Below are positions 1,632 through 43,466 of a stretch of DNA of 45,755 nt, in pieces. Positions within the stretch are counted from its first letter, which is position 1. Each line of letters starts with the position of its first letter. Position numbers and translations under genes: made by a program. Location of the stretch: positions 1 to 45,755 of the forward strand of contig JAAYFO010000182.1 of NCBI GenBank assembly GCA_012728215.1, written 5' to 3'. The DNA comes from Spirochaetales bacterium (GTDB lineage: Bacteria; Spirochaetota; Spirochaetia; Sphaerochaetales; Sphaerochaetaceae). Below the pieces are notes generated by a model, which saw nothing but the letters and a program-made list of their open reading frames with translations, was not told where the DNA came from and searched no databases.

Positions 1632-2528
1632 ATGATAAGAATAAAACACATTGCAATCGCAGTGATGGCATTTCTGCTGACACCATTCTTCATTCAGGCT
1701 GATTCCTTCACCTTGGAGGAGGCCTTCACGCTTGCCCGATCCTCCAACAGTGAAATTGAATCCGCACAGCTTGATCTCATTTCCGCACAACGTACCGCCA
1801 CAATTGATGAGAACCTTCCATCCTTGTCGCTGTCGGGAGGGCTTAGCGCTTCCGGAGGGCTGCTGGGAAACAACACATGGAGTCCTTCACTCAATATTGG
1901 ATCCGAAATCGGAATAGGAGTGAGATTCTCATTTCTCGATGGCAAGCAGTTCACCACATATGGAGGGACATTGATCACCATCATCCTTCTTGCTCTTCTA
2001 CTTGTTTTTGCAGTCATGGCCGCCCAGTTTGAATCCCTTATTGACCCATTCATCATCTTTGCGACGATACCAATGCTCCTGATCGGGGTCGTATGGGTTC
2101 ATATCTGGGCAGGCCAGGACTTTACCCTTTACTCAATCGTAGGAATCATCGCACTCATAGGTGTGGTGGTGAACAACGGAATAGTGATGGTCGATTCGAT
2201 AAACCAGCTGGTACGGGCAAAGACTCCGATTCACCAAGCATGCATGACTGCAGCAAGGACAAGGCTCAGACCAATATTGATGACTACATTGACAACAGTT
2301 CTGAAAATGGTGCCAATGGCATTCTTCCCCAAAGAAGGGGCAAGCTCAATGCAACCTATAGCGCTGACCTTTGTCGGAGGGCTTCTCACAGGTTCATTCA
2401 TGACACTGTTCCTCTCGCCTATCCTCTACACTGTCTTTAACAGAAACAAGGAAAGACGATTCAACGATCCAAATGCAATAGACAATCAGATCGCCGCTTT
2501 CGACGCCAAGTATGGCACCGTCCGCTGA
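1632..2528 (+). pseudogene. Chimeric ORF: TolC-family outer-membrane efflux protein N-terminus fused in frame to RND (AcrB-family) C-terminal transmembrane region
   Basis: aa 1-~112 signal peptide plus 'FTLEEAFTLARSSNSEIESAQLDLISAQRT' (TolC-like); aa ~114-298 'LLLVFAVMAAQFESLIDPFIIFATIPMLLIGV...GIVMVDSINQLVRAKTPIHQACMTAARTRLRPILMTTLTTVL' (RND C-terminal half). Confidence 0.85.
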
Positions 2529-2825: not shown

Positions 2826-3752
2826 TTAGAAGTTGAACTGAGTCCTGAACTCGACCTTTGTGTTGGAAGCATAAAGTCTGGATGCAACCTTGCCCATCTT
2901 GACCTGTACCCATCCGTCCACTGACCAGTTGTTGGCAACATCAGAGAAATCACTGATTCCGCCATCAGCACCGACTGTGAACATTGAATTGATGGCATAG
3001 TTTGCTCCACCACTAAGTGACATCGTTCCAGAATCGTAAACGAACTCAGAGTAGGCACTGAGCTTGTCAAATCCTGCCTTCAAGCCACCGACATAGAGAT
3101 TGTTTGTCATGTCATCAAAATACAATTCAGCATATGCACCAGCGGAAAGGGAGAAGTCCATTTTTGCAAGAGCTGCAATATCAACTCCGAATGAAGCACT
3201 GACTGCGTTCACTTCCTGTGAATAAGCAGCCTGCACATCCACGCCGTCCACCACTGCGCCAGACACTGAAAGGCCGAATGACTTCTTGTCATGCTCAAGT
3301 CCAGCAGCTGCGTAAAGTGACCAGCCCTTGTAACCTACTGTGATTCCGATTGGAGCAGTGCTTTCTGTAGCAAGAGGCAGATACCAGGCATCACTTCCTG
3401 CGGCATCTATGTAGGCATAGCCAGCATAGAGACTATTCACACCGACATCGGCAGAAAGAGTCATTTCTTCGGGAAGTGTGATTTTTGCAGTGGCGAGAAT
3501 CTTGTCGATGTTCAAAGTCGCATAAGCGCTGTAACTGCTATACTGATACCCCTGTCCACCGAAGTAGATTGACCAGAGATCACTGGAATCTGTCAGTGTC
3601 ATGTAGTTTCTGTTGCCGGCAGTTACCCCGTTGTTTCCACTTGAATAAACATAAGTGTACTTGATACCGAATCTTCCACCGATAGTCGGGGTTGCAAAAG
3701 CAGCTGCCGATACCAGGACCAAAACCAAAAGAATACTAATTGTTTTCTTCAT
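2826..3752 (-). CDS. Secreted/outer-membrane beta-barrel-like protein
   Basis: Signal peptide MKKTISILLVLVLVSAAAFA; repeated amphipathic beta-strand-like segments rich in Tyr/Gly/Ser; C-terminus ends FRTQFNF, as in porin-like barrels. Confidence 0.65.
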   Translation of the reverse strand: MKKTISILLVLVLVSAAAFATPTIGGRFGIKYTYVYSSGNNGVTAGNRNYMTLTDSSDLWSIYFGGQGYQYSSYSAYATLNIDKILATAKITLPEEMTLSADVGVNSLYAGYAYIDAAGSDAWYLPLATESTAPIGITVGYKGWSLYAAAGLEHDKKSFGLSVSGAVVDGVDVQAAYSQEVNAVSASFGVDIAALAKMDFSLSAGAYAELYFDDMTNNLYVGGLKAGFDKLSAYSEFVYDSGTMSLSGGANYAINSMFTVGADGGISDFSDVANNWSVDGWVQVKMGKVASRLYASNTKVEFRTQFNF

Positions 3753-20876: not shown

Positions 20877-22067
20877 TTGACTTTCAAAGACTTGCCGAAA
20901 GGCACATGGCTCATACGCCTTGCCCGTTCCACTTATGGAAAATGGGTTTGCAGACATTACAAGCTGTCCATTGAGAACAGATCGCTTCTTGATGAAATAG
21001 ATGGTCCATTTCTCCTCCTTGCCAATCATACGCACATCATTGACTATATTTTCATCTCATGTCTTTTTCCATTCCATATCAGATGGGTTGCCGGTGCTCA
21101 CCTGTTCAAGAAGAGGTTTGTCAGACTTATCGTCAAGAAATATGCCCAATGTATTTCCAAGGAACAGGGAAGAAGCGACATCTCGACTGTCATGGAGATG
21201 AAGAAGGTTCTGAAAGGCGGATCGCCAGTCGGCTTGTTTCCGGAAGGGACAAGGACTTGGGACGGCAGCACTGCAATGGATGACGAACAGTATCTTCTGA
21301 TGGCAAAGCTGATAAGATATTTGAAGGTTCCCGTGCTGTTTGTCAACAACAAGGGCGGTTTTGCATGTAAGCCGCGATGGAGAGAAATGGAAGCTGATGG
21401 ACCGGTGACGATAAGCCTCCGTGCCTTTGTCAGACCGGAGGAATATCTGGATATGCCAATTCCCGATCTGAAGGAACTCATCAGGACTGATTTCTTCTTT
21501 TCCAATGACGAATGGCAGAATGAAGCAAGGATTCCATATTATTGCAGCAAGGGAGCAGAAGGGCTTCAGAGAGTGCTCTACATATGCCCTGTCTGCCATA
21601 AGCTTGGAACCCATGTCACAGACGGCAACACAATGACATGTTCATCTTGCGGTGCCGTCACCACAATGGATGAATTTCAGATGCTCAAATCCTCTTCCAC
21701 ACATTTCTCGACCATCAGGCAGTGGCATGAATGGGAACAGTCGCAGTTGAGAAGTGATACTGTCAAATTCGAAAAAGAAGAAGGGGTCCTCTTTCAGATT
21801 GGTGACATCGATGGTTACCAGACCGTTTCTGAAAAGATCATGGTAAGTGCAGATTCTGAGAAAATCACCGTGGAATGCCTCGATGTTGACAGACATTCCT
21901 TCCACTTGATGTTTTCTGAAATTTCCTCAATTGTAATCACTTTGAAGCAGACTATGGAATTGTTCATTGGAACAACGCTATACAGAATAAGGCTGAATCC
22001 TGATGGCTCCGCATTGAAATACAGTGAACTGCACCAAGCGCTTAGACAGCATGTTCCAGTTGGATAA
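20877..22067 (+). CDS. PlsC-like 1-acylglycerol-3-phosphate acyltransferase fused to C-terminal zinc ribbon (paralog 1)
   Basis: HX4D 'NHTHIID', 'LFPEGTRTW', 'KVPVLFV'; zinc ribbon 'LYICPVC...TMTCSSCGAV'; 'WHEWEQSQL'. TTG start with GGGAG SD. Confidence 0.85.
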   Translation: MTFKDLPKGTWLIRLARSTYGKWVCRHYKLSIENRSLLDEIDGPFLLLANHTHIIDYIFISCLFPFHIRWVAGAHLFKKRFVRLIVKKYAQCISKEQGRSDISTVMEMKKVLKGGSPVGLFPEGTRTWDGSTAMDDEQYLLMAKLIRYLKVPVLFVNNKGGFACKPRWREMEADGPVTISLRAFVRPEEYLDMPIPDLKELIRTDFFFSNDEWQNEARIPYYCSKGAEGLQRVLYICPVCHKLGTHVTDGNTMTCSSCGAVTTMDEFQMLKSSSTHFSTIRQWHEWEQSQLRSDTVKFEKEEGVLFQIGDIDGYQTVSEKIMVSADSEKITVECLDVDRHSFHLMFSEISSIVITLKQTMELFIGTTLYRIRLNPDGSALKYSELHQALRQHVPVG

Positions 22068-22194: not shown

Positions 22195-23619
22195 ATGGAT
22201 TTTTCATACATGATTCATCTTGCAGTCACATCGATAGCATTGCTGATCGGGGTTTTATTAAGAAACAAGGTGAAGCTTCTTCAAAAGTTTCTCATCCCTG
22301 CTTCAATCATTGGAGGATTTCTTCTTCTGCTGTTCTATAATTTCCTTGGTCCAATTCTCGGTCTTTCCAATGCTTTTCTTGGAAATCTTGTATATCACCT
22401 CCTCAACATCTCATTTATTGCAATGATGCTGAGAATCCCAGAGACAAATCACAAGGCTGGTGCTGCTACTAGGCAGAATGTCGTTGCCATAGCTTCCCAA
22501 TACGGGTTTCAATGTCTCTTCGGGCTTCTTGCGACATTTCTGATGATCAAGACCTTTGCTCCTGATCTGTTTCCCGCTTTTGGGTTCACGCTTCCATTGG
22601 GATTTGAATTAGGGCCGGGGCAGGCTTATTCGATGTCATTGGTCTGGGAGGCAATGGGATTTGATGGTGCATCTTCTGTAGGGCTGTCCATGGCTGCGAT
22701 TGGATTTGTCGTCGGCTCAATCGGAGGTGTGATTCTGATCAATATTGCAATAAGGAGAAAATGGCTTTCTCCTGCTCAGATCGAGAAGCTGCATTCCAGA
22801 GAAGTCAGAACCAGCTTTCTGGCTCAGGAAAAGCAGACTGGCGCAGTCCTTACAACAAACAGCGAGGCAATAGACAGCTTCACTTATCATATTGCTTTGA
22901 TTGGCATGACATACTTTCTCAGCTTCGAACTGCTTTCGCTGATTTCATATCTGCTCAGCTTCATCGGCCCCATCGGGATCGAACTTGCTGACAGTCTCTG
23001 GGGAATCAACTTTGTCTTCAGCTCACTTTGCGCAATTCTTGTGAGAAAGACCATTGGTGTCCTCAAACTGGATAAATCAGTGGACAATCTCACGCTTAAT
23101 CGAATCAATGGCCTTTCTGTGGACTTCACAGTATGTGCTTCTCTTGGAGCAATAACGCTGGCCGCCATTTCACAATACTGGCTGCCGATCATCGTTCTGG
23201 TGGTTGTAGGAATCGCAATCACCTGCTTTCTGCTTCCATGGTATTGCAGCAGACTCTTTTCCGACAATCAGTTCTATCGAACACTGATGATCTTCGGAAC
23301 TGCCACCGGTACACTTCCAACTGGTCTCAGTCTTCTGAGAATTGTCGATCCGGAATTTGAAACTCCTGTGGCACAGGATTACATCTATGCAACTGGGATA
23401 ATGCTCCCACTTGCCATACCGATAATCCTTAGCATCAATCTTCCTGCATTCAGCGTTGTCCAGGGAAATCCGCTTTTGTTCTGGGCAGCTGTAGGAATGA
23501 GTGCCTTATATGTGATAATTCCAATGATATTCTATTTCTTGATTGCCAAGAAACGCTCGTTCGCGGACAAATCCAAGTTCTTCTTTGTGGACAAGAAAAC
23601 ACGTTCACAAGCAGAATGA
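22195..23619 (+). CDS. gltS: Sodium/glutamate symporter (GltS family)
   Basis: Multi-TM; 'LLIGVLLRNKVKLLQKFLIPASIIGGFLLLL', 'LPLGFELGPGQAYSMSLVWEAMGFDGASSVGLSMAAIGFVVGSIGGV', 'GTATGTLPTGLSLLRIVDPEFETPVAQDY'. Confidence 0.85.
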   Translation: MDFSYMIHLAVTSIALLIGVLLRNKVKLLQKFLIPASIIGGFLLLLFYNFLGPILGLSNAFLGNLVYHLLNISFIAMMLRIPETNHKAGAATRQNVVAIASQYGFQCLFGLLATFLMIKTFAPDLFPAFGFTLPLGFELGPGQAYSMSLVWEAMGFDGASSVGLSMAAIGFVVGSIGGVILINIAIRRKWLSPAQIEKLHSREVRTSFLAQEKQTGAVLTTNSEAIDSFTYHIALIGMTYFLSFELLSLISYLLSFIGPIGIELADSLWGINFVFSSLCAILVRKTIGVLKLDKSVDNLTLNRINGLSVDFTVCASLGAITLAAISQYWLPIIVLVVVGIAITCFLLPWYCSRLFSDNQFYRTLMIFGTATGTLPTGLSLLRIVDPEFETPVAQDYIYATGIMLPLAIPIILSINLPAFSVVQGNPLLFWAAVGMSALYVIIPMIFYFLIAKKRSFADKSKFFFVDKKTRSQAE

Positions 23620-27744: not shown

Positions 27745-29001
27745 ATGGACAGAATACTATCAGAAGAAAGGCGTTTCGACCTTACAGAGAAACCAAGACA
27801 CATCAGATGGTTTCTCAAGCCACTGACATGGATTTTTTCCTACCCGACAGTCTGGGTACACCATGTGAAGATATGCCGCGATGAAGGAGTCAGGAAATTA
27901 AAGCCTCCATTCATTCTTCTTTGCAATCACAATGCCTTTCAGGATTTCAAAGTCGCTACCGCCGCTGTCTTCCCACATGCTCCGAACTACGTCATTGCCA
28001 TAGATGGTTATCTCAAGCGCGAATGGCTGATCAAGAACATCGGATCAATCTGCAAGAGGAAGTTCACAAATGACATCAGCCTTGTGCGAAACATGAAGCA
28101 TGCACTATCATCAAAGGGAATCATCGGTCTATACCCGGAAGCAAGATATTCCCTATGTGGAACAAATGCCATTCTGCCTCGTTCCCTTGGCAAGCTTATA
28201 AAGTATCTCAACGTTCCAGTTGCCACTCTTCTATGCCATGGACACCATATCAATTCCCCCTACTGGGCACTTGGAGACAGGAAGGTCCATACAACCGCTG
28301 ATTATTCGGTTCTCTTCACCAAGGAACAGGTATCATCGCTTTCGATCGATGAAATCAATGGAAGAATCAAAGAAGTGTTTCACTACGACGACTTCGCATG
28401 GCAAAGAGACAACAAGGTTTCCGTTAAGTATCCCAAAAGGGCAGAAGGACTTCATAAGGTTCTCTATCAATGTCCAGCATGCAAGACAGAATATGAAATG
28501 GAAAGCAGTGAATCAGAACTGATCTGCAGGCATTGCGGCAAGAAATGGCAGATGACGGAATTCGGCGAGCTTAAGGCTGAAGACGGGCAAGACATCTTCA
28601 CACACATCCCCTCCTGGTACGAATGGGAAAGAAAGCAGGTTGCAAAGCAAATATCCGAAGGAACTTACCACTTCGAGAAGCAAAGCACGATCATGGCTCT
28701 GCCGAATCCTGACAGATTCATACCGATGGGTAAATGCATCCTGAAACACGACATGAAAGGCTTTCACGTGAATGGAACATACAGAAACCAGCCGTATTGC
28801 ATCGATATCGAGGCAGAAGGACAATACTCAGTGCACATTGAGTATGACTATCTTGGCAAATATGGAGATCTTGTAGACCTCAACACTCTGAATGACACAT
28901 TCTACATCATGCCAGAAGGAACTGACTTCTCGGTCACAAAGCTGTCGCTTGCAACCGAGGAACTATTCAAATATTACGAGGCTCAGCAAGGCAGGACATG
29001 A
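27745..29001 (+). CDS. PlsC-like acyltransferase fused to C-terminal zinc ribbon (paralog 2)
   Basis: 'LLCNHNAFQDF' (HX4D), 'GLYPEARYS', zinc ribbon 'LYQCPACKTEYEMESSESELICRHCGKKW', 'SWYEWERKQV'. ORF open from 27718; ATG 27745 or 27730 plausible. Confidence 0.82.
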   Translation: MDRILSEERRFDLTEKPRHIRWFLKPLTWIFSYPTVWVHHVKICRDEGVRKLKPPFILLCNHNAFQDFKVATAAVFPHAPNYVIAIDGYLKREWLIKNIGSICKRKFTNDISLVRNMKHALSSKGIIGLYPEARYSLCGTNAILPRSLGKLIKYLNVPVATLLCHGHHINSPYWALGDRKVHTTADYSVLFTKEQVSSLSIDEINGRIKEVFHYDDFAWQRDNKVSVKYPKRAEGLHKVLYQCPACKTEYEMESSESELICRHCGKKWQMTEFGELKAEDGQDIFTHIPSWYEWERKQVAKQISEGTYHFEKQSTIMALPNPDRFIPMGKCILKHDMKGFHVNGTYRNQPYCIDIEAEGQYSVHIEYDYLGKYGDLVDLNTLNDTFYIMPEGTDFSVTKLSLATEELFKYYEAQQGRT

Positions 29002-33102: not shown

Positions 33103-34421
33103 TCAGAATGCTCCAGGAACAGCTTCGGCAGGAATCAGGCTGCTATACTCATGGTTCTGAACCTTGTCATGAAATTCCCTTGATGCATCTGATAGAAGTG
33201 ATGAGTCACTTATCAGATCCAAGGCTGTTGATGCAATCGTCAGTGCACCGACATGCATTCCCCTGTGTGCAATGGAAGACTTTCCCTGTGCCGTGGCCTG
33301 CCAGCTATGAAGTCCGGTACCTGCCGCAAGACAGTTAATCGTCATGCATGAAGAAGGAACGCAGCGGCTTACATCACCAAAGTCAGTAGAGGCTGAAGGC
33401 TGGCGGTCCAAGGTGCAGTCCAGACTTCCATCTATTCCTTCAGAAGAAAACATTTGTGCATACTCCAGCTCCCTGTTAGAATACTCAAGAGGAAAAAACC
33501 TGCTGGCATTTTCAATCATCAACCGATCCAGAACACTATTGGAAACAATATCGGAATATGCACTCACAACCTTGAATTCAACCTTGGTTCCCGTCATCAG
33601 TGCAGCGCCACGGGCTACGTCCTTCACTCTTTCCATAACCTGCTTGACAACATCCTGTCTGGGGGCTCTTATGGCGTAAATCACCTTGGAATAAGATTGC
33701 ACGACGTTTTCCGGTCCGCCTGCATCCAAAAAGGCATAATGCAGCCTTACCGACGATGGCACATGTTCTCGAAGAAAGTTACATCCTACGTTCATCAGTT
33801 CGGCAGCATCCAGTGCACTTCGTCCAAGATGTGGAAAGCTGGAAGCATGAGCGCTGGTTCCAAAGAACTCAAAAATCATCCTGACGTTGGCCAGCGAGCT
33901 GTTGAACAGGTGACTGCCCAAGCCAGGGTGCCAGCTCACGCTGCATCACAGCCATCAAAGCAACCTGAACGAGCCATGAAGGCCTTGCCTGCACCGCCTT
34001 CCTCGCCTGGGCATCCGTAATAACGCACCGTGCCTCTTTGCGCAAGTTCAGCTACCAGCACTGCGGCTTCCATCGCACCGACACCAAGCAGATGATGTCC
34101 ACATCCATGGCCAGGACCTCCCTTTACAATGGGATTGTGGAACTTGCAGTCCGCATGCTGACTCAATGACGGCAAGGCATCATATTCGCCACAGATGGCA
34201 ATGACAGGATTCCCCGAACCCTTTTCTGCTACAAAAGCAGTAGGCAAACCTCCGATTCCTTCCTTGATAGAGAAACCTGATTCAGCAAGACAATCCTTTA
34301 TCTTCGCCGAAGAACGGTATTCATTGAAACGTGTTTCGGGACAATCCCATATTGAATCACTGATCTGCTCAAACACAGCAGCATTTCTTTTCTGAAGCTC
34401 CAGAAGTTCATTGCTTATCAT
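33103..34421 (-). pseudogene. M20-family amidohydrolase (AbgB-like), split into two ORFs (33936-34421 and 33103-33939) by an apparent 1-nt frameshift
   Basis: N-part '...AICGEYDALPSLSQ...GHGCGHHLLG...GCPGEEGGAGKAFMARSGCFDGCDAA*' continues directly as 'SWHPG...FEFFGTSAHASSFPHLGRSALDAAELMNVG' in the other frame; overlap GTGA. Confidence 0.8.
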
Positions 34422-36793: not shown

Positions 36794-36827
36794 GTAGGGA
36801 TGTTAGGATATGCAACGGAGGAATGCC

Positions 36828-37502
36828 ATGAGACTGCTTCTTGCAGAAGACGAAAAAGAACTATCCAATGCATTGTGCATGATCCTGCGCCATGACAATT
36901 ATTCGGTCGATGCAGTGTATGATGGAAATGAGGCCTTGAACTACATCACTTCGGGAGAATACGATGCTGTCATCCTGGATATCATGATGCCAGGAATGAA
37001 CGGCATAAACGTGCTCAAGGAAGCCAGACGGAGAGGCTGCGCCACTCCTGTCATAATCCTCACTGCAAAAGCAGAAATCGAAGACAAGGTCCTTGGGCTT
37101 GATTCCGGTGCCGATGACTATCTCACCAAGCCTTTCTCCTCAAGTGAACTTCTGGCAAGACTCAGAGCTTTGAGCAGGAGAAAAAGCGAACTCACTTCGA
37201 ATGAGCTCAAGTCAGGGAACATCACTCTGAATCAGGCAACAGGAGTTCTTTCTTCATCTAAAGGTGAATTCAAACTTGCAAACAAGGAATTTCAGATGAT
37301 GCAGATGCTGATGGTTGAGCCGGGACGAGTCATTCCAACTGATAGGTTCATGGAAAGAATCTGGGGCTGGGATTCTGATGCGCAGATCAATGTAGTTTGG
37401 GTATATATTTCATATCTCAGGAAGAAACTGACAGCATTGGAAAGCACTGCCAAAATCATTGCTTCCAGAAGCCTTGGATACAGTCTGGAGGTTCCACGAT
37501 GA
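36828..37502 (+). CDS. OmpR-family response regulator
   Basis: 'MRLLLAEDEKELSNAL', 'DAVILDIMMPGMNGINVLKEAR', 'ILTAKAEIEDKVLGLDSGADDYLTKPFSSSELLARLRAL'; winged-helix C-terminus; SD GGAGG. Confidence 0.95.
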   Translation: MRLLLAEDEKELSNALCMILRHDNYSVDAVYDGNEALNYITSGEYDAVILDIMMPGMNGINVLKEARRRGCATPVIILTAKAEIEDKVLGLDSGADDYLTKPFSSSELLARLRALSRRKSELTSNELKSGNITLNQATGVLSSSKGEFKLANKEFQMMQMLMVEPGRVIPTDRFMERIWGWDSDAQINVVWVYISYLRKKLTALESTAKIIASRSLGYSLEVPR

Positions 37503-38752
37503 TTGAGAAACTGAGAAGAAAGTTCGTATATGTGTCACTCACTTCCGTTTCCGTGATGCTTCTGATTCTCATGGGAATTCTAAACTCACTGAATTATATC
37601 ACCACAGTGGACAAAGCCGATCGGACTTTAATGATTCTTTTTGACAACGGCGGAAGATTTCCAGAGCCTGTTGAACCAATGGCTGAGGATGACATTATGC
37701 ATAAGCCTCCATTACATGGGATGGACAAGGACCTTAAGCATTTCTCAGCGGAAACACCATTCGAATCCAGATATTTCTCAGTGACATTCGATTCAAATGG
37801 CAATGTATCGGCGACTGATACCGCTTCAATTGCAGCGGTGACCAAAGAATTGGCAGAAAAACATGCAGCCTCGGCAAGAGAAAGCGGAAAGGAATCAGGG
37901 TTCATCGGCAACTATCGTTTCAGATCAGATGGCTTCATGGTCGTGTTTCTCGACTGCACGCGAGACATTGAATCATTCAGATCATTGCTTTTCATCTCTC
38001 TTGGTGTGGCGGTGGCAGGCCTTTTATTTGTATTCATCTTTAGCCTGTTCTTCTCCAATATCGCATTGAAACCTGTAATGCAAAGTTATATGAAACAGAA
38101 GCGGTTCATCACTGATGCCTCCCATGAAATCAGAACACCCCTGACAATAATCGATGCCAATACCGAAGTCATTGAGATGACATCTGGAAAGACAGAATGG
38201 ACAAGAAGCATAAGAAGTCAGATAACCAGGCTGAGCGAGTTGACGAAATCGCTTGTATCACTGTCAAGAATGGATGAGGGAAACGGAAGCTTCAATCCAA
38301 CTGAATTCTCATTGTCGGATGCGTTGGAGGAAGTTGGCGAGCAGTTTGATTCTTCAGCAATGCGAAGTCATAAGAAATTCGAAAAGGACATTGAGCATGG
38401 AATCACTATGAAAGGTGATGAAACACAGATCAGGCAGTTGATTTCAATTCTGCTTGACAATGCTATGAAGTACTCCAATCCAGAAGGCTGGATCAAGCTG
38501 GAGATGGGACGAAACGGACACAAGGCTTCAATAGCGGTCTCAAACTCCGTTGAATCAGCTATCAAGGGCGAACATGATCAGGTGTTTGACCGTTTCATGA
38601 GAATGGACTCATCTCGAACCCACAGCACTCCAGGCTATGGTCTTGGACTCTCAATTGCCCAATCCATCGTTCTAAGGCATAAAGGAAGGATTTCCGCCTT
38701 CAGCCCTGACGAAAGGACATTCTGTCTGAAAGCAATTCTACCAATTGTGTAG
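37499..38752 (+). CDS. Sensor histidine kinase
   Basis: ATGA overlap with the response regulator; 'RFITDASHEIRTPLTIIDANTEVIEM', 'LISILLDNAMKYSNPEG', 'GYGLGLSIAQSIVLRHKGRI'. Confidence 0.93.
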   Translation: MIEKLRRKFVYVSLTSVSVMLLILMGILNSLNYITTVDKADRTLMILFDNGGRFPEPVEPMAEDDIMHKPPLHGMDKDLKHFSAETPFESRYFSVTFDSNGNVSATDTASIAAVTKELAEKHAASARESGKESGFIGNYRFRSDGFMVVFLDCTRDIESFRSLLFISLGVAVAGLLFVFIFSLFFSNIALKPVMQSYMKQKRFITDASHEIRTPLTIIDANTEVIEMTSGKTEWTRSIRSQITRLSELTKSLVSLSRMDEGNGSFNPTEFSLSDALEEVGEQFDSSAMRSHKKFEKDIEHGITMKGDETQIRQLISILLDNAMKYSNPEGWIKLEMGRNGHKASIAVSNSVESAIKGEHDQVFDRFMRMDSSRTHSTPGYGLGLSIAQSIVLRHKGRISAFSPDERTFCLKAILPIV

Positions 38753-38783
38753 AAACAAGGAGTTGGAGATAAACTTGATTCCT

Positions 38784-38799
38784 TTTAAGTAGATTTAAA
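38784..38799 (+). promoter_or_regulatory. Putative response-regulator operator (direct repeat TTTAAG-taga-TTTAAA)
   Basis: Same spacing and near-identical hexamers as 36778-36793, 44 bp upstream of the VTC gene ATG. Confidence 0.35.
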
Positions 38800-38842
38800 C
38801 TGCCACTGCTAGATTTCAATCACAGACCTTGGAGGTGTGTTT

Positions 38843-39550
38843 ATGGAATACAGCAGCATTTTTGAACGGACAGAGATGAAATATCTTCTCAGCACCAAGC
38901 AGTATCTTGCTGTGAAGCAGGCAATTTCCAAATGGATGGAGATTGACAAGTATGGCAGAACTACCATCTGCAACCTCTACTATGATACTTTTGACAGCAT
39001 TCTGATCCAACGCTCGCTGGAGAAGCCACTCTACAAGGAAAAGCTCCGAGTCAGATCATATGGACAAGCCGGCATTCAGAGTCCTGCTTTTGTTGAGTTG
39101 AAGAAGAAGTACAAGGGAATAGTCTACAAACGTAGAGTGGCAATGCCATATTCAGACGCCATCTCATACATGAATGGACATGAAGCACCGATGAGCAATC
39201 AGATTATCTCAGAAATTGATTACTTCAAGTCTTTCTACAGGAACCTGAGACCTATGATGTACATCAGCTATGAGCGGGAAGCTTTCTTCTGCAAGTCATC
39301 AGCAGATCTGAGAATCACCTTCGACCAGAATATTCTTTACCGGGACACCGATCTTTCGCTATGCAGCAGACCTTATGGAAGCAGCCTGCTGGAGGAAGAG
39401 CAGGTCTTAATGGAAATCAAAGCATCAATGGCCATACCTCTATGGTTGGTATCGATTCTAAATACTGATCATTTGACAAAGACATCATTCTCAAAGTATG
39501 GGAATGCCTATCTTAGTTCAATTGCAAAAGGAGTTTATGAATATGCCTGA
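38843..39550 (+). CDS. VTC domain protein (polyphosphate polymerase-like)
   Basis: 'FERTEMKYLLSTKQYLAVKQAI', 'ICNLYYDTFDSILIQRSLEKPLYKEKLRVRSYG', 'VFVELKKKYKGIVYKRRV'-type pattern, 'YISYEREAFF', 'VLMEIKASMAIPLWL'. Confidence 0.88.
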   Translation: MEYSSIFERTEMKYLLSTKQYLAVKQAISKWMEIDKYGRTTICNLYYDTFDSILIQRSLEKPLYKEKLRVRSYGQAGIQSPAFVELKKKYKGIVYKRRVAMPYSDAISYMNGHEAPMSNQIISEIDYFKSFYRNLRPMMYISYEREAFFCKSSADLRITFDQNILYRDTDLSLCSRPYGSSLLEEEQVLMEIKASMAIPLWLVSILNTDHLTKTSFSKYGNAYLSSIAKGVYEYA

Positions 39551-40238
39551 CAATTTCTTCAGCAGCATTCTTGATTCTGCAACAACACAAGCCATTTCAG
39601 TCACGAATTTCCTCATATGTCTGGGAACCTCGCTTGTCCTGGGATTGATTCTTTCCCTCGCCTACATGTACAAGAGTCATTACACAAAAAGCTTCTCTGT
39701 GACTATGGCGTTGATTCCATCGGTGGTATGCATAGTCATCATGATGGTCAATGGAAATGTTGGTGCAGGAGTGGCGGTTGCAGGCGCATTCAGCTTGGTA
39801 CGGTTCAGATCTGCAACAGGAACGGCAAAGGAGATCGGAGGGATATTCCTTGCCATGGGAGCCGGTCTTGCATGCGGAATGGGATACATTGCATTTGGAA
39901 TCTGCTTCTGCATTATCATCGCAGCGGTATGGATGCTGTATTCCCAGTCGCACTTCGGAGAGAAGCAGAAAGTCCAGGCAGACCGGACATTGAAGATCAC
40001 TATCCCTGAAGATCTGGACTATTATGAAGCGTTCGACGATCTGATGGCTCTCTACACAAGCAAGAATCAGATCATGAAAGTCAAGACAACCAATTTGGGA
40101 AGCCTTTTCAAGATCACATGGAACCTGACATTGAGCGATCCATCCAAAGAAAAGGAATTCATCGATAAACTTCGCTGCCGGAATGGCAATCTTGAGATTG
40201 CAATGTACCAGCAGGAGATTCAGAGCAACGAGCTCTGA
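39543..40238 (+). CDS. DUF4956 membrane protein
   Basis: TM region followed by 'GNVGAGVAVAGAFSLVRFRSATGTAKEIGGIFLAMGAGLACGMGYI', characteristic of DUF4956; overlaps end of the VTC gene. Confidence 0.85.
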   Translation: MPDNFFSSILDSATTQAISVTNFLICLGTSLVLGLILSLAYMYKSHYTKSFSVTMALIPSVVCIVIMMVNGNVGAGVAVAGAFSLVRFRSATGTAKEIGGIFLAMGAGLACGMGYIAFGICFCIIIAAVWMLYSQSHFGEKQKVQADRTLKITIPEDLDYYEAFDDLMALYTSKNQIMKVKTTNLGSLFKITWNLTLSDPSKEKEFIDKLRCRNGNLEIAMYQQEIQSNEL

Positions 40239-40249
40239 TGGAGGAAAAC

Positions 40250-42091
40250 ATGAGAAAAAGCATAAGAATAATCGTAGCTGCATTGATCATGATTGCAGTG
40301 TCCACGTTCTGCCTCGCCGGATGTGCCAGCAAGGAAGAAAACAGTACAGAAGTTTCAAACTCAGCAGCTGCAGTAACGTCTGCTTCAGAAACGACACGGC
40401 CTGCAATTTCAGGTCAGTCTACGTTCCCGCCACCAGACGGAACAGACTTTCATGGTGGGAAAGGCGGATTTGGTGGAATGGGAGGAATGGACAATTCCCA
40501 GACCGATGTCACTGACATCAGCACAGGAATAACATCAGGCATTGATCCCTCAAATCAGTTCTCCACGAGAGATGGAATCACGTCATATGACGAGGCTGCC
40601 TGCACTGTCATAGACCTCAGCCAGATGTCACAGAGTGTAAATCTTACCAATGAGGGACTCTACCTGATAACAGGGACTCTTTCCAATGGCCAGCTTGTCG
40701 TCAACGCCCCAAAAACAGCAAAGATCCAGATAATTCTGAAAAACGCCTCCATTTCTTCTGATGAGGTTGCAATACTGATAAATCAAGCCGATAAGGTATT
40801 CATCACTCTTGCAGAGAATTCGGTCAATGAGATCTCGGGAGCAATAGTCTCCAAGGCAGATCTGACAATCAATGGCAATGGAAGCCTGACCATCGATTCA
40901 CCAATATCCGGAATAGATGCAAAGGATGATCTTGCCATGACAGGAGGAACAATCGCCATCACCAGTTTTGAGCATGGAATCGAGGCAAATGACAGCATCA
41001 GGATTTTTGGTGGAACATTCATGATTGATTCTGACAAGGATGGCTTGCACTGCTCAAATTCGGAGGATATTGAGAAAGGCTACATATTCATCTTTGGTGG
41101 AAGTTTCGACATTAATGCCGCAGGGGATGGAATCGATGCCAGTGGAGAGATTCTGATCACCGGTGGTGAATTCGAAATCGTCTCAGGTGGCGGTGCCGCC
41201 AGTTCAACAAAAGATCATCAGCCACTGATGGACTTCAGAGGGATGACGAATTCGACAGTGAATGAAGAGGAAGAAAACTCTTCCAGCTCCAAAGGAATCA
41301 AATCAGATTCCATACTGATGATCACCGGCGGAACATTCTCAATTGACAGCTTTGATGACGCAGTCCATTCAAATGGAAGCGTGAAGATATCAGGAGGAAA
41401 ACTTCAACTCAGTTCGGGAGACGATGGAATACATTTTGAATCTCAACTGGAGATCGCGGATGGAGCTGTGACAATCACCACGTCCTACGAAGGCATTGAA
41501 GGAGCTGTGATAGTCATCAGGGGCGGCATAGTGAATGTGACCTCATCAGATGATGGTCTGAATGCAACAACAGGAACTGCATCTTCCCAGAATCCTATGA
41601 CAGGCGATTCTTCGGCACTGGTCGTCATCTCAGGAGGAGAACTGACTGTCAATGCAGGTGGAGATGGAGTTGATTCCAACGGATCCCTTCTGGTGACAGG
41701 CGGAACGACCGTTGTGTTCGGTCCGGTGGACGGCGGGAATGGAGCAGTTGACTATGGCATTGCAGCCAAGATCACAGGAGGCGCTTTCATTGCATTCGGA
41801 TCCAGCCAGATGGCTCAGAACTTCAGTGGATATTCAACCCAGGGAAGCATTCTTGCAGCTTCTTCATCCCAACAGCCAGCAAATTCGCTGGTGACGCTTA
41901 CAGATGAAAATGGTGAGAAACTCATAGTCAGTCTTCCTTCAGCGAAGAGCTTCAACTCGGTAGTAGTAAGCACACCTGAAGTCATTCAAGGCAGCACCTA
42001 CAATCTGACTCTTGGAAATCAGACTAAAACAATTACCATGACAGATACCATCTACAGCGAAAGTTCAGGCTTCGGGAAATTCCAAAGATAG
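40250..42091 (+). CDS. Lipoprotein with Cthe_2159-type carbohydrate-binding (right-handed beta-helix) domain
   Basis: Lipobox 'CLAGCAS'; repeated 'GGTFSIDSFDDAVHSNGSVKISGGKLQLSSGDDGIHFESQLEI' units. Confidence 0.85.
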   Translation: MRKSIRIIVAALIMIAVSTFCLAGCASKEENSTEVSNSAAAVTSASETTRPAISGQSTFPPPDGTDFHGGKGGFGGMGGMDNSQTDVTDISTGITSGIDPSNQFSTRDGITSYDEAACTVIDLSQMSQSVNLTNEGLYLITGTLSNGQLVVNAPKTAKIQIILKNASISSDEVAILINQADKVFITLAENSVNEISGAIVSKADLTINGNGSLTIDSPISGIDAKDDLAMTGGTIAITSFEHGIEANDSIRIFGGTFMIDSDKDGLHCSNSEDIEKGYIFIFGGSFDINAAGDGIDASGEILITGGEFEIVSGGGAASSTKDHQPLMDFRGMTNSTVNEEEENSSSSKGIKSDSILMITGGTFSIDSFDDAVHSNGSVKISGGKLQLSSGDDGIHFESQLEIADGAVTITTSYEGIEGAVIVIRGGIVNVTSSDDGLNATTGTASSQNPMTGDSSALVVISGGELTVNAGGDGVDSNGSLLVTGGTTVVFGPVDGGNGAVDYGIAAKITGGAFIAFGSSQMAQNFSGYSTQGSILAASSSQQPANSLVTLTDENGEKLIVSLPSAKSFNSVVVSTPEVIQGSTYNLTLGNQTKTITMTDTIYSESSGFGKFQR

Positions 42092-42167: not shown

Positions 42168-43466
42168 TCAGAACGCTGTCCAGGATACCTTCTCCCTCTC
42201 CTCGGCATCCACAAAATCACGCCATGGGCCTTCATTCATTCGATGAATCTCCTCAGTCGCAAGAAACCACTTCTCCACAGTAGAATGCTCAGGATAGAAC
42301 TCCATGAACTCACCTTTGTAGAAAGTATAGAAACGGGATATATCAGTGCACATGCCATATGTCGGAAGGCTCCTTGAATCTATGAAGAACTCAAAAGCCT
42401 CACCGTTTCTTGTTCCCTTGTAGGCAAGCCCGTCTCTGTTGAGAGTCAGAACACCTTCCCCTAAGATCTCTGAAGTTTTCTGATCCTTGAGAAAGTGATC
42501 TGAAGGAATGTTCCCAAGCCTTACCTTTTCGACGAGGCAAAATGAAGGATCTGCAATCTCCTTTCTGACTTCATGGCGCTGCCAGTCCAGCCAGTCCCTT
42601 GGTGTGGACGGGATCCGACAGCCTTTCCTTATGGAAGTCATGACGTATCTGTCATCAAGAATTGCACCATTGCCGCATACCGAGCAGCTGATGCTGTTTC
42701 CTTTTCCCTCCATATGAAACTCAGCACCGCATACAGGACACTTGTACAGAAGAGTATGCAGGTTTTCAGCAACCTTTCCTCCGCAGGAGAATTCTGCTCC
42801 GACTTTCGAATTCCATTGATAGTCATCATTCCTTATGGCGGTGTTGATGCTGTCCTGAATCTCTTGATCGCTCATTCTCTCCAATTGCCCGGCAGTGAAA
42901 AGCCGATCGACAATCACATGAACCTTGCCCGGTCGTTCTTCCAGGCAATACTTGGTACTGGTCAGGTATCCACCACTGATTCTTGTCATCAACACGGGAA
43001 CGCCAAGTTTCTTCAAGAATTTTCCTGTTCCTGCGCAAACTGGCTGGTTTGCACCTGAAATCGAACTCATTCCTTCTGGATACAGACATACCTTTCCACC
43101 ACTTTTAATAATCGAACGAATCGATTTCATTGAATACATGTCGGCTACAAAGTTCTTCTTGGGAATAATCTGCAGAAGCCTGAAAATGAATGCCAGATGA
43201 GAACGGAAGAATTCATTGTATCCAGCAACGAAGTTGAACCTCATCGGAAGGCATGCAAGCCCTGTATAGATGTAATCCAAACGGGAAGCATGGTTGCTTA
43301 TCATGACAAGCGGTGTCCTTCGGTACTGCTTCATGTCTATTCTGCATTCCACCTCGACACCAAGCTTTCGAAAATAAATCATTTTCCAGACATAGCCCAG
43401 CAGAAGATATGGAATCAAAGGTGGGCGTTTGATTTTTCTCTGAACGAGCTCCTCTTGATTTGTCAT
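42168..43466 (-). CDS. PlsC-like acyltransferase fused to C-terminal zinc ribbon (paralog 3)
   Basis: 'MISNHASRLDYIYTG' (HX4D), 'VCLYPEGMSS', 'LGVPVLMTRISGG'; zinc ribbon 'LYKCPVCGAEFHMEGKGNSISCSVCGNGA'; 'DWLDWQRHEV'. Confidence 0.86.
   Translation of the reverse strand: MTNQEELVQRKIKRPPLIPYLLLGYVWKMIYFRKLGVEVECRIDMKQYRRTPLVMISNHASRLDYIYTGLACLPMRFNFVAGYNEFFRSHLAFIFRLLQIIPKKNFVADMYSMKSIRSIIKSGGKVCLYPEGMSSISGANQPVCAGTGKFLKKLGVPVLMTRISGGYLTSTKYCLEERPGKVHVIVDRLFTAGQLERMSDQEIQDSINTAIRNDDYQWNSKVGAEFSCGGKVAENLHTLLYKCPVCGAEFHMEGKGNSISCSVCGNGAILDDRYVMTSIRKGCRIPSTPRDWLDWQRHEVRKEIADPSFCLVEKVRLGNIPSDHFLKDQKTSEILGEGVLTLNRDGLAYKGTRNGEAFEFFIDSRSLPTYGMCTDISRFYTFYKGEFMEFYPEHSTVEKWFLATEEIHRMNEGPWRDFVDAEEREKVSWTAF

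Follow-up and report, generated by a model that had tools for sequence, protein, structure and literature searches.

The 45,755-nucleotide stretch of Spirochaetales DNA analysed here (“the window”) encodes three proteins, P1, P2 and P3, in which an acyltransferase domain of the PlsC type is followed by a zinc ribbon and a C-terminal tail, and the question raised by this locus is what reaction proteins of such a build carry out, on which acceptor, and what the added parts contribute. The reading favoured here, to which a probability of about 0.6 may be attached, is that P1-P3 are accessory lysolipid acyltransferases in which the zinc ribbon is structural and the PH-like domain serves for docking, that their acceptor is probably not lysophosphatidic acid (LPA), and that one of the subfamilies to which they belong, subfamily B, has a GltS-like partner.

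The three open reading frames were proposed in a preliminary description on the strength of their PlsC-type motifs, and each of them gives a match to the Pfam Acyltransferase model PF01553 above its cut-off of 23 bits (P1 51.1, P2 26.2, P3 40.4). P1, a protein of subfamily B, is encoded on the forward strand at 20877-22067 (396 amino acids, with a TTG start preceded by a GGGAG ribosome site); its PlsC-type domain covers residues 42-144 (21000-21308), its zinc ribbon C237-C258 (21585-21650) and its PH-like C-terminal domain residues 298-391 (21768-22049). P2, of subfamily A, lies on the same strand at 27745-29001 (418 amino acids), with the corresponding parts at residues 49-137 (27889-28155), C243-C264 (28471-28536) and residues 310-414 (28672-28986). 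P3, of the looser group C, is encoded on the reverse strand at 42168-43466 (432 amino acids), with a PlsC-type domain at residues 42-159 (42990-43343), a ribbon at C243-C264 (42675-42740) and a tail, at 42243-42542 with approximate limits, which is placed by alignment to the PH-like domain and is its putative counterpart. The acyltransferase domains are delimited by the PF01553 matches, joined for P1 and P2 by a fold match to the structure 5kym; the PH-like domains of P1 and P2 are delimited by AlphaFold models and Foldseek; and the ribbons are delimited by cysteine conservation and by the translations, which land exactly on the positions first proposed for them. The HX4D motif reads NHTHIID in P1, NHNAFQD in P2 and NHASRLD in P3, and motif III reads FPEGTR, YPEARY and YPEGMS respectively; P2 is 25% and P3 20% identical to P1. 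In a profile search with Pfam and NCBIfam the N-terminal acyltransferase domain alone exceeds a Pfam cut-off, nothing is found on the tail, and no model covers the whole protein, so that no named family with the full architecture exists in these libraries. Literature term searches of open-licence papers returned no acyltransferase with a zinc ribbon, either with or without a PH domain.

AlphaFold2 models built with family alignments have a mean pLDDT of 94.6 and a pTM of 0.90 for P1 and of 96.6 and 0.93 for P2. At the N-termini of both, the top Foldseek match in the PDB is PlsC of T. maritima (5kym), with which the family shares the N-terminal fold, the HX4D motif and the positions of the catalytic residues, and from which it differs in having the ribbon and the PH-like domain in addition. 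Both tails are modelled as a beta sandwich with a C-terminal helix, which is the arrangement of the PH superfold (ARAP3 PH, ASAP1 PH, PTB, EVH1; Foldseek probability up to 1.00). The tail of P1 matches the ARAP3 PH domain (7yir) with an E-value of 1.5e-4 and a probability of 1.00, and that of P2 matches DH/PH, PTB, PH and EVH1 structures with E-values of about 0.008 to 0.05 and probabilities mostly of 0.8-0.98. The tail of the family, unlike PH-superfold domains, reaches the cut-off of no sequence model. A deep subfamily B protein (L151) gives independent weak matches, below cut-off, to GRAM and bPH_3. The early guess of a PH- or GRAM-like tail is supported by the models of P1 and P2 because of these Foldseek matches to PH and PTB structures and of the GRAM and bPH_3 matches. 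Docking of the enzyme to a lipid headgroup or to a membrane protein is a possible role of such a domain; PH-fold domains often bind proteins, and lipid docking is one option for the tail.

The ribbon consists of two CxxC knuckles, and each of its four cysteines is conserved in 99-100% of 110 family members, while the first and second tryptophans of the WxxW motif are conserved in 99% and 90% of them; the cysteine and WxxW pattern noticed at the outset in three proteins is thus no chance resemblance. The matches of P1-P3 to the curated zinc-ribbon models of Pfam (Zn_Ribbon_TF and others) are all under cut-off. The conservation of the four cysteines fits an ordinary structural zinc ribbon, which is a prediction, the models being metal-free, and which would act as a rigid structural linker; no finding speaks for or against the metal or redox sensing raised in the preliminary description. 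A role in a defence system was also considered and was dropped, since the matches obtained with PADLOC are weak and confined to the surroundings of the ribbon.

The evidence for catalysis comes from the residues of the active site: the His and Asp of motif I and the Glu of motif III are present in 100% of the 110 members. By analogy with the superfamily, P1-P3 would be membrane-surface O-acyltransferases of the PlsC/LPLAT type with a fixed three-part build, in which the His-Asp pair of the HX4D motif, in the N-terminal alpha/beta domain, would activate the acceptor hydroxyl, and the acyl group would be taken from acyl-ACP or acyl-CoA. The nature of the acceptor may be approached through two residues of T. 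maritima PlsC, K105 and R159, for which a contact with the phosphate of LPA has been proposed (PMC6688108); their counterparts in the family were read from the 5kym alignment. The K105 position is occupied by Gly, Ala, Ser or Thr, and by Lys or Arg in 0 of 110 members. The arginine of EGTR, the counterpart of R159, occurs in 12 of 16 subfamily B proteins, 1 of 89 in subfamily A and 0 of 5 in group C; it is present in P1, shifted by one position in P2 (PEARYS) and absent from P3 (PEGMSS). The glycine of EGTR, which is nearly invariant among LPA acyltransferases (PMC6688108), is mostly replaced by Ala in subfamily A. Against the LPA acyltransferase model TIGR00530, which has a cut-off of 102.95 bits, P1 scores 47.7 and P3 29.1, and P2 gives no match. 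Because the residues for contact with the LPA phosphate are missing and the scores are sub-threshold, the proteins probably act on some lysolipid which is not LPA, the case being strongest for P2 and P3; P1 keeps the EGTR arginine, so its acceptor could still be LPA. The suggestion in the preliminary description that the three proteins have distinct acceptors is also probably right, given that motif III varies between the subfamilies and that the LPA-phosphate lysine is missing from all of them.

The same residues bear on a simpler explanation, in which P1-P3 are ordinary LPA acyltransferases, that is, extra PlsC isozymes whose added domains only tune membrane binding. This would account for the invariance of the catalytic triad, for PlsC being the top structural match, for the FPEGTR sequence retained in P1 and for the match of P1, sub-cut-off as it is, to the LPA acyltransferase model. 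It is nevertheless unlikely, in view of the complete lack of any Lys or Arg in place of K105, the changes at the EGTR arginine in subfamily A and group C and at the glycine in subfamily A, scores which are all far under the cut-off, and the canonical PlsC already present in relatives. For the favoured reading of accessory enzymes with a different acceptor, the missing phosphate contacts yield a testable prediction: the product lipid should be one other than phosphatidic acid.

Precedents for such acceptors exist within the PlsC superfamily, where OlsA (lyso-ornithine lipid acyltransferase, NF052553) and SalA (PMC8319176) are linked to lysolipids other than LPA; the scores of P1 (21.9 bits) and P3 (15.8 bits) against the OlsA model are weak compared to its cut-off of 300, and the comparison with SalA is one of described function. 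P1 and P3 also match the PlsC section of Aas-type acyl-[ACP]-phospholipid O-acyltransferases (NF006386, NF005959), at 39 and 34.9 bits against NF006386, far under the cut-off of 1221, but no ligase domain of the Aas kind was found in P1-P3. Aas-type proteins are multi-domain, and likewise two relatives of the ribbon family are fused to membrane domains. One of these (L177, 619 amino acids, L177:3265-5124, reverse strand) carries an N-terminal VTT domain ahead of the zinc-ribbon acyltransferase, and its gene overlaps by 4 bases that of a DcuC carrier (L177:1844-3268, reverse strand). The other (L116, 800 amino acids, L116:9422-11821, reverse strand) joins a hydrophobic polytopic N-terminal domain of about 400 amino acids, for which no match by sequence was found in Pfam or the PDB, to a module of the group C type. 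The long reading frames L109, L011 and L024 were left out of the fusions, since their N-terminal extensions look like read-through of a non-coding frame.

A second line of evidence on function is provided by gene order. Directly downstream of P1, after a gap of 127 bases, the window holds a gene for a GltS-like membrane protein (22195-23619, forward strand, 474 amino acids) which matches PF03616, the Pfam model of the GltS sodium/glutamate symporter, over its cut-off, but which at 37 bits falls far under the cut-off of the GltS equivalog TIGR00210 (310.75); two other partner proteins tested with TIGR00210 and PF03616 gave no GltS match. Most genomes with subfamily B have the two genes side by side in the same orientation, and in 24 genomes a GltS-like gene of about 473 codons comes next after the subfamily B gene on its strand. 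There are three further same-strand pairs, one of them a contig-edge fragment, and many pairs share a 4-base overlap; the two genes are adjacent in opposite orientation in three more genomes, and both are present yet separate in G002 and a few others. Among 34 genomes of the host family, 18 have both genes, 13 have neither and 3 have one only, two of these 3 being at contig edges (Fisher p 1.4e-6, a value which ignores phylogeny). The pattern mostly persists beyond this family, G036 and G034 being exceptions. No conserved partners of subfamily A or group C were found beyond local synteny, and the link to a transporter is accordingly limited to P1. The pairing suggests that the function of subfamily B is tied to the GltS-like protein, with which P1 would work and which would act as a transporter; this association is a second prediction that can be tested.

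The pairing also lends itself to a quite different interpretation, in which P1-P3 are mainly regulators or scaffolds that bind a membrane transporter through the ribbon and the PH-like domain (for P1 this transporter being the GltS-like protein), acyl transfer being secondary or lost. Both the close association and co-occurrence of subfamily B with its partner gene and the presence of the peptide-binding PTB and EVH1 domains among the structural matches of the tail would agree with such a role, but the complete conservation of the active-site His, Asp and Glu over 110 divergent members argues for catalysis, and neither subfamily A nor group C has a partner, which together make the interpretation improbable. 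A bolder extension of the favoured reading would make the family a new class of non-LPA lysolipid acyltransferases, in which subfamily B and its GltS-like partner form a two-gene system coupling the transport of a compound of the amino-acid or dicarboxylate type to the synthesis of an undescribed membrane lipid; this is speculative, and rated as unlikely. As a separate observation, a GltS-like gene at L195:1611-2462 (forward strand) in genome G021, in which no family member was found, is truncated N-terminally, and is a possible remnant of a subfamily B pair.

The term “accessory” implies that P1-P3 would act beside the normal GPAT and PlsC enzymes and not in place of them, and it must therefore be asked whether the host has a PlsC of its own. 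Canonical PlsC-like genes of 230-300 codons are present in relatives, and in both same-genus relatives plsC comes after the gene of a DEAD-box helicase; in the present assembly this helicase gene lies at a contig end, where plsC would be expected. A search of the whole genome, which is 97% complete, with Pfam found PF01553 in P1-P3 only, and a same-genus PlsC used as query matched P1 alone, weakly. Taken at face value, these two results would favour a scheme in which P1 (or P2 or P3) has replaced the canonical enzyme and is the essential phosphatidate-forming acyltransferase. The same Pfam search, however, overlooked a GPAT-like acyltransferase gene as well (L171, contig C92:6937-8037, reverse strand), which is 54% identical to the copy in genome G018. 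Because the expected site is at a contig end and the search missed this gene, the absence of further PF01553 genes is no evidence of plsC loss; plsC would simply lie in an assembly gap, and the replacement scheme was rejected as very improbable. PlsY was not found in this genome nor in its two same-genus relatives, which fits the use of a GPAT-like route.

The family to which these accessory enzymes would belong is widespread in bacteria and unnamed, and comprises two old subfamilies (A and B) and the looser group C; with a domain plan absent from the profile libraries searched, it would bring additional acyltransferases into the lipid biology of spirochetes and of the Clostridia of gut and rumen. 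At least 548 confirmed relatives emerged when 84,980 species genomes were scanned, and the 80 retained belong to bins of Bacillota, Spirochaetota and Bacteroidota. Of 296 genomes sampled from the host class, 140 carry one copy or more; a looser search matched 34 of 41 relatives, part of them via ordinary PlsC alone. A tree of 121 proteins separates subfamily A, which typically has YPEARYS and includes P2, from subfamily B, which typically has FPEGTR and includes P1, and places P3 on a long branch in group C (support 89, drawn open). P1 clusters with proteins of its own genus and family, and a copy in the host-family genome G004 is nearly identical to one from a Spirochaetia bin, in keeping with a probable spirochete host. 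P2 stands apart from the subfamily A copies of the host family, among sequences from Clostridia, and the AU test rejects a single clade uniting P2 with those copies (p 2e-14, 255 log-likelihood units worse, computed on a quick tree). The placement suggests that P2 was probably acquired horizontally, with hidden paralogy as a possible alternative; carriage of P2 on a plasmid was considered and discarded, no plasmid match having been obtained.

The tree does not support the lineage-specific expansion by which the preliminary description had explained the three copies: each falls in a distinct ancient group whose orthologs span many genera, and P2 lies among Clostridia sequences. The copies had also been called unlinked, which is wrong for this genome: P1, P2 and P3 are the only ones found in it, and all lie inside 22.6 kb, unlike the copies of relatives, which are scattered. 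Under uniform placement such clustering has a probability of about 5e-4, a figure computed after the clustering had been noticed, and it may be accidental. Elsewhere in the family, two subfamily A genes form a tandem pair 5 bases apart (L018:2878-5447, forward strand).

Several other genes of the window may be recorded. A reading frame of 308 codons at 2826-3752 (reverse strand) has no Pfam match at an E-value of 0.01. One of 298 codons at 1632-2528 (forward strand) has an OEP match and, after it, a match to AcrB limited to the C-terminal end (PF00873, positions 856-1020), and resembles an efflux gene that has been truncated or rearranged. An M20 peptidase is apparently split into its dimerisation and catalytic parts at 33103-33939 and 33936-34421 (reverse strand), which overlap by 4 bases, possibly through a frameshift. 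At 36810-42091 (forward strand), a two-component system is followed by genes of the VTC-domain, DUF4956 and Cthe_2159 types, which possibly constitute a polyphosphate-related cluster.
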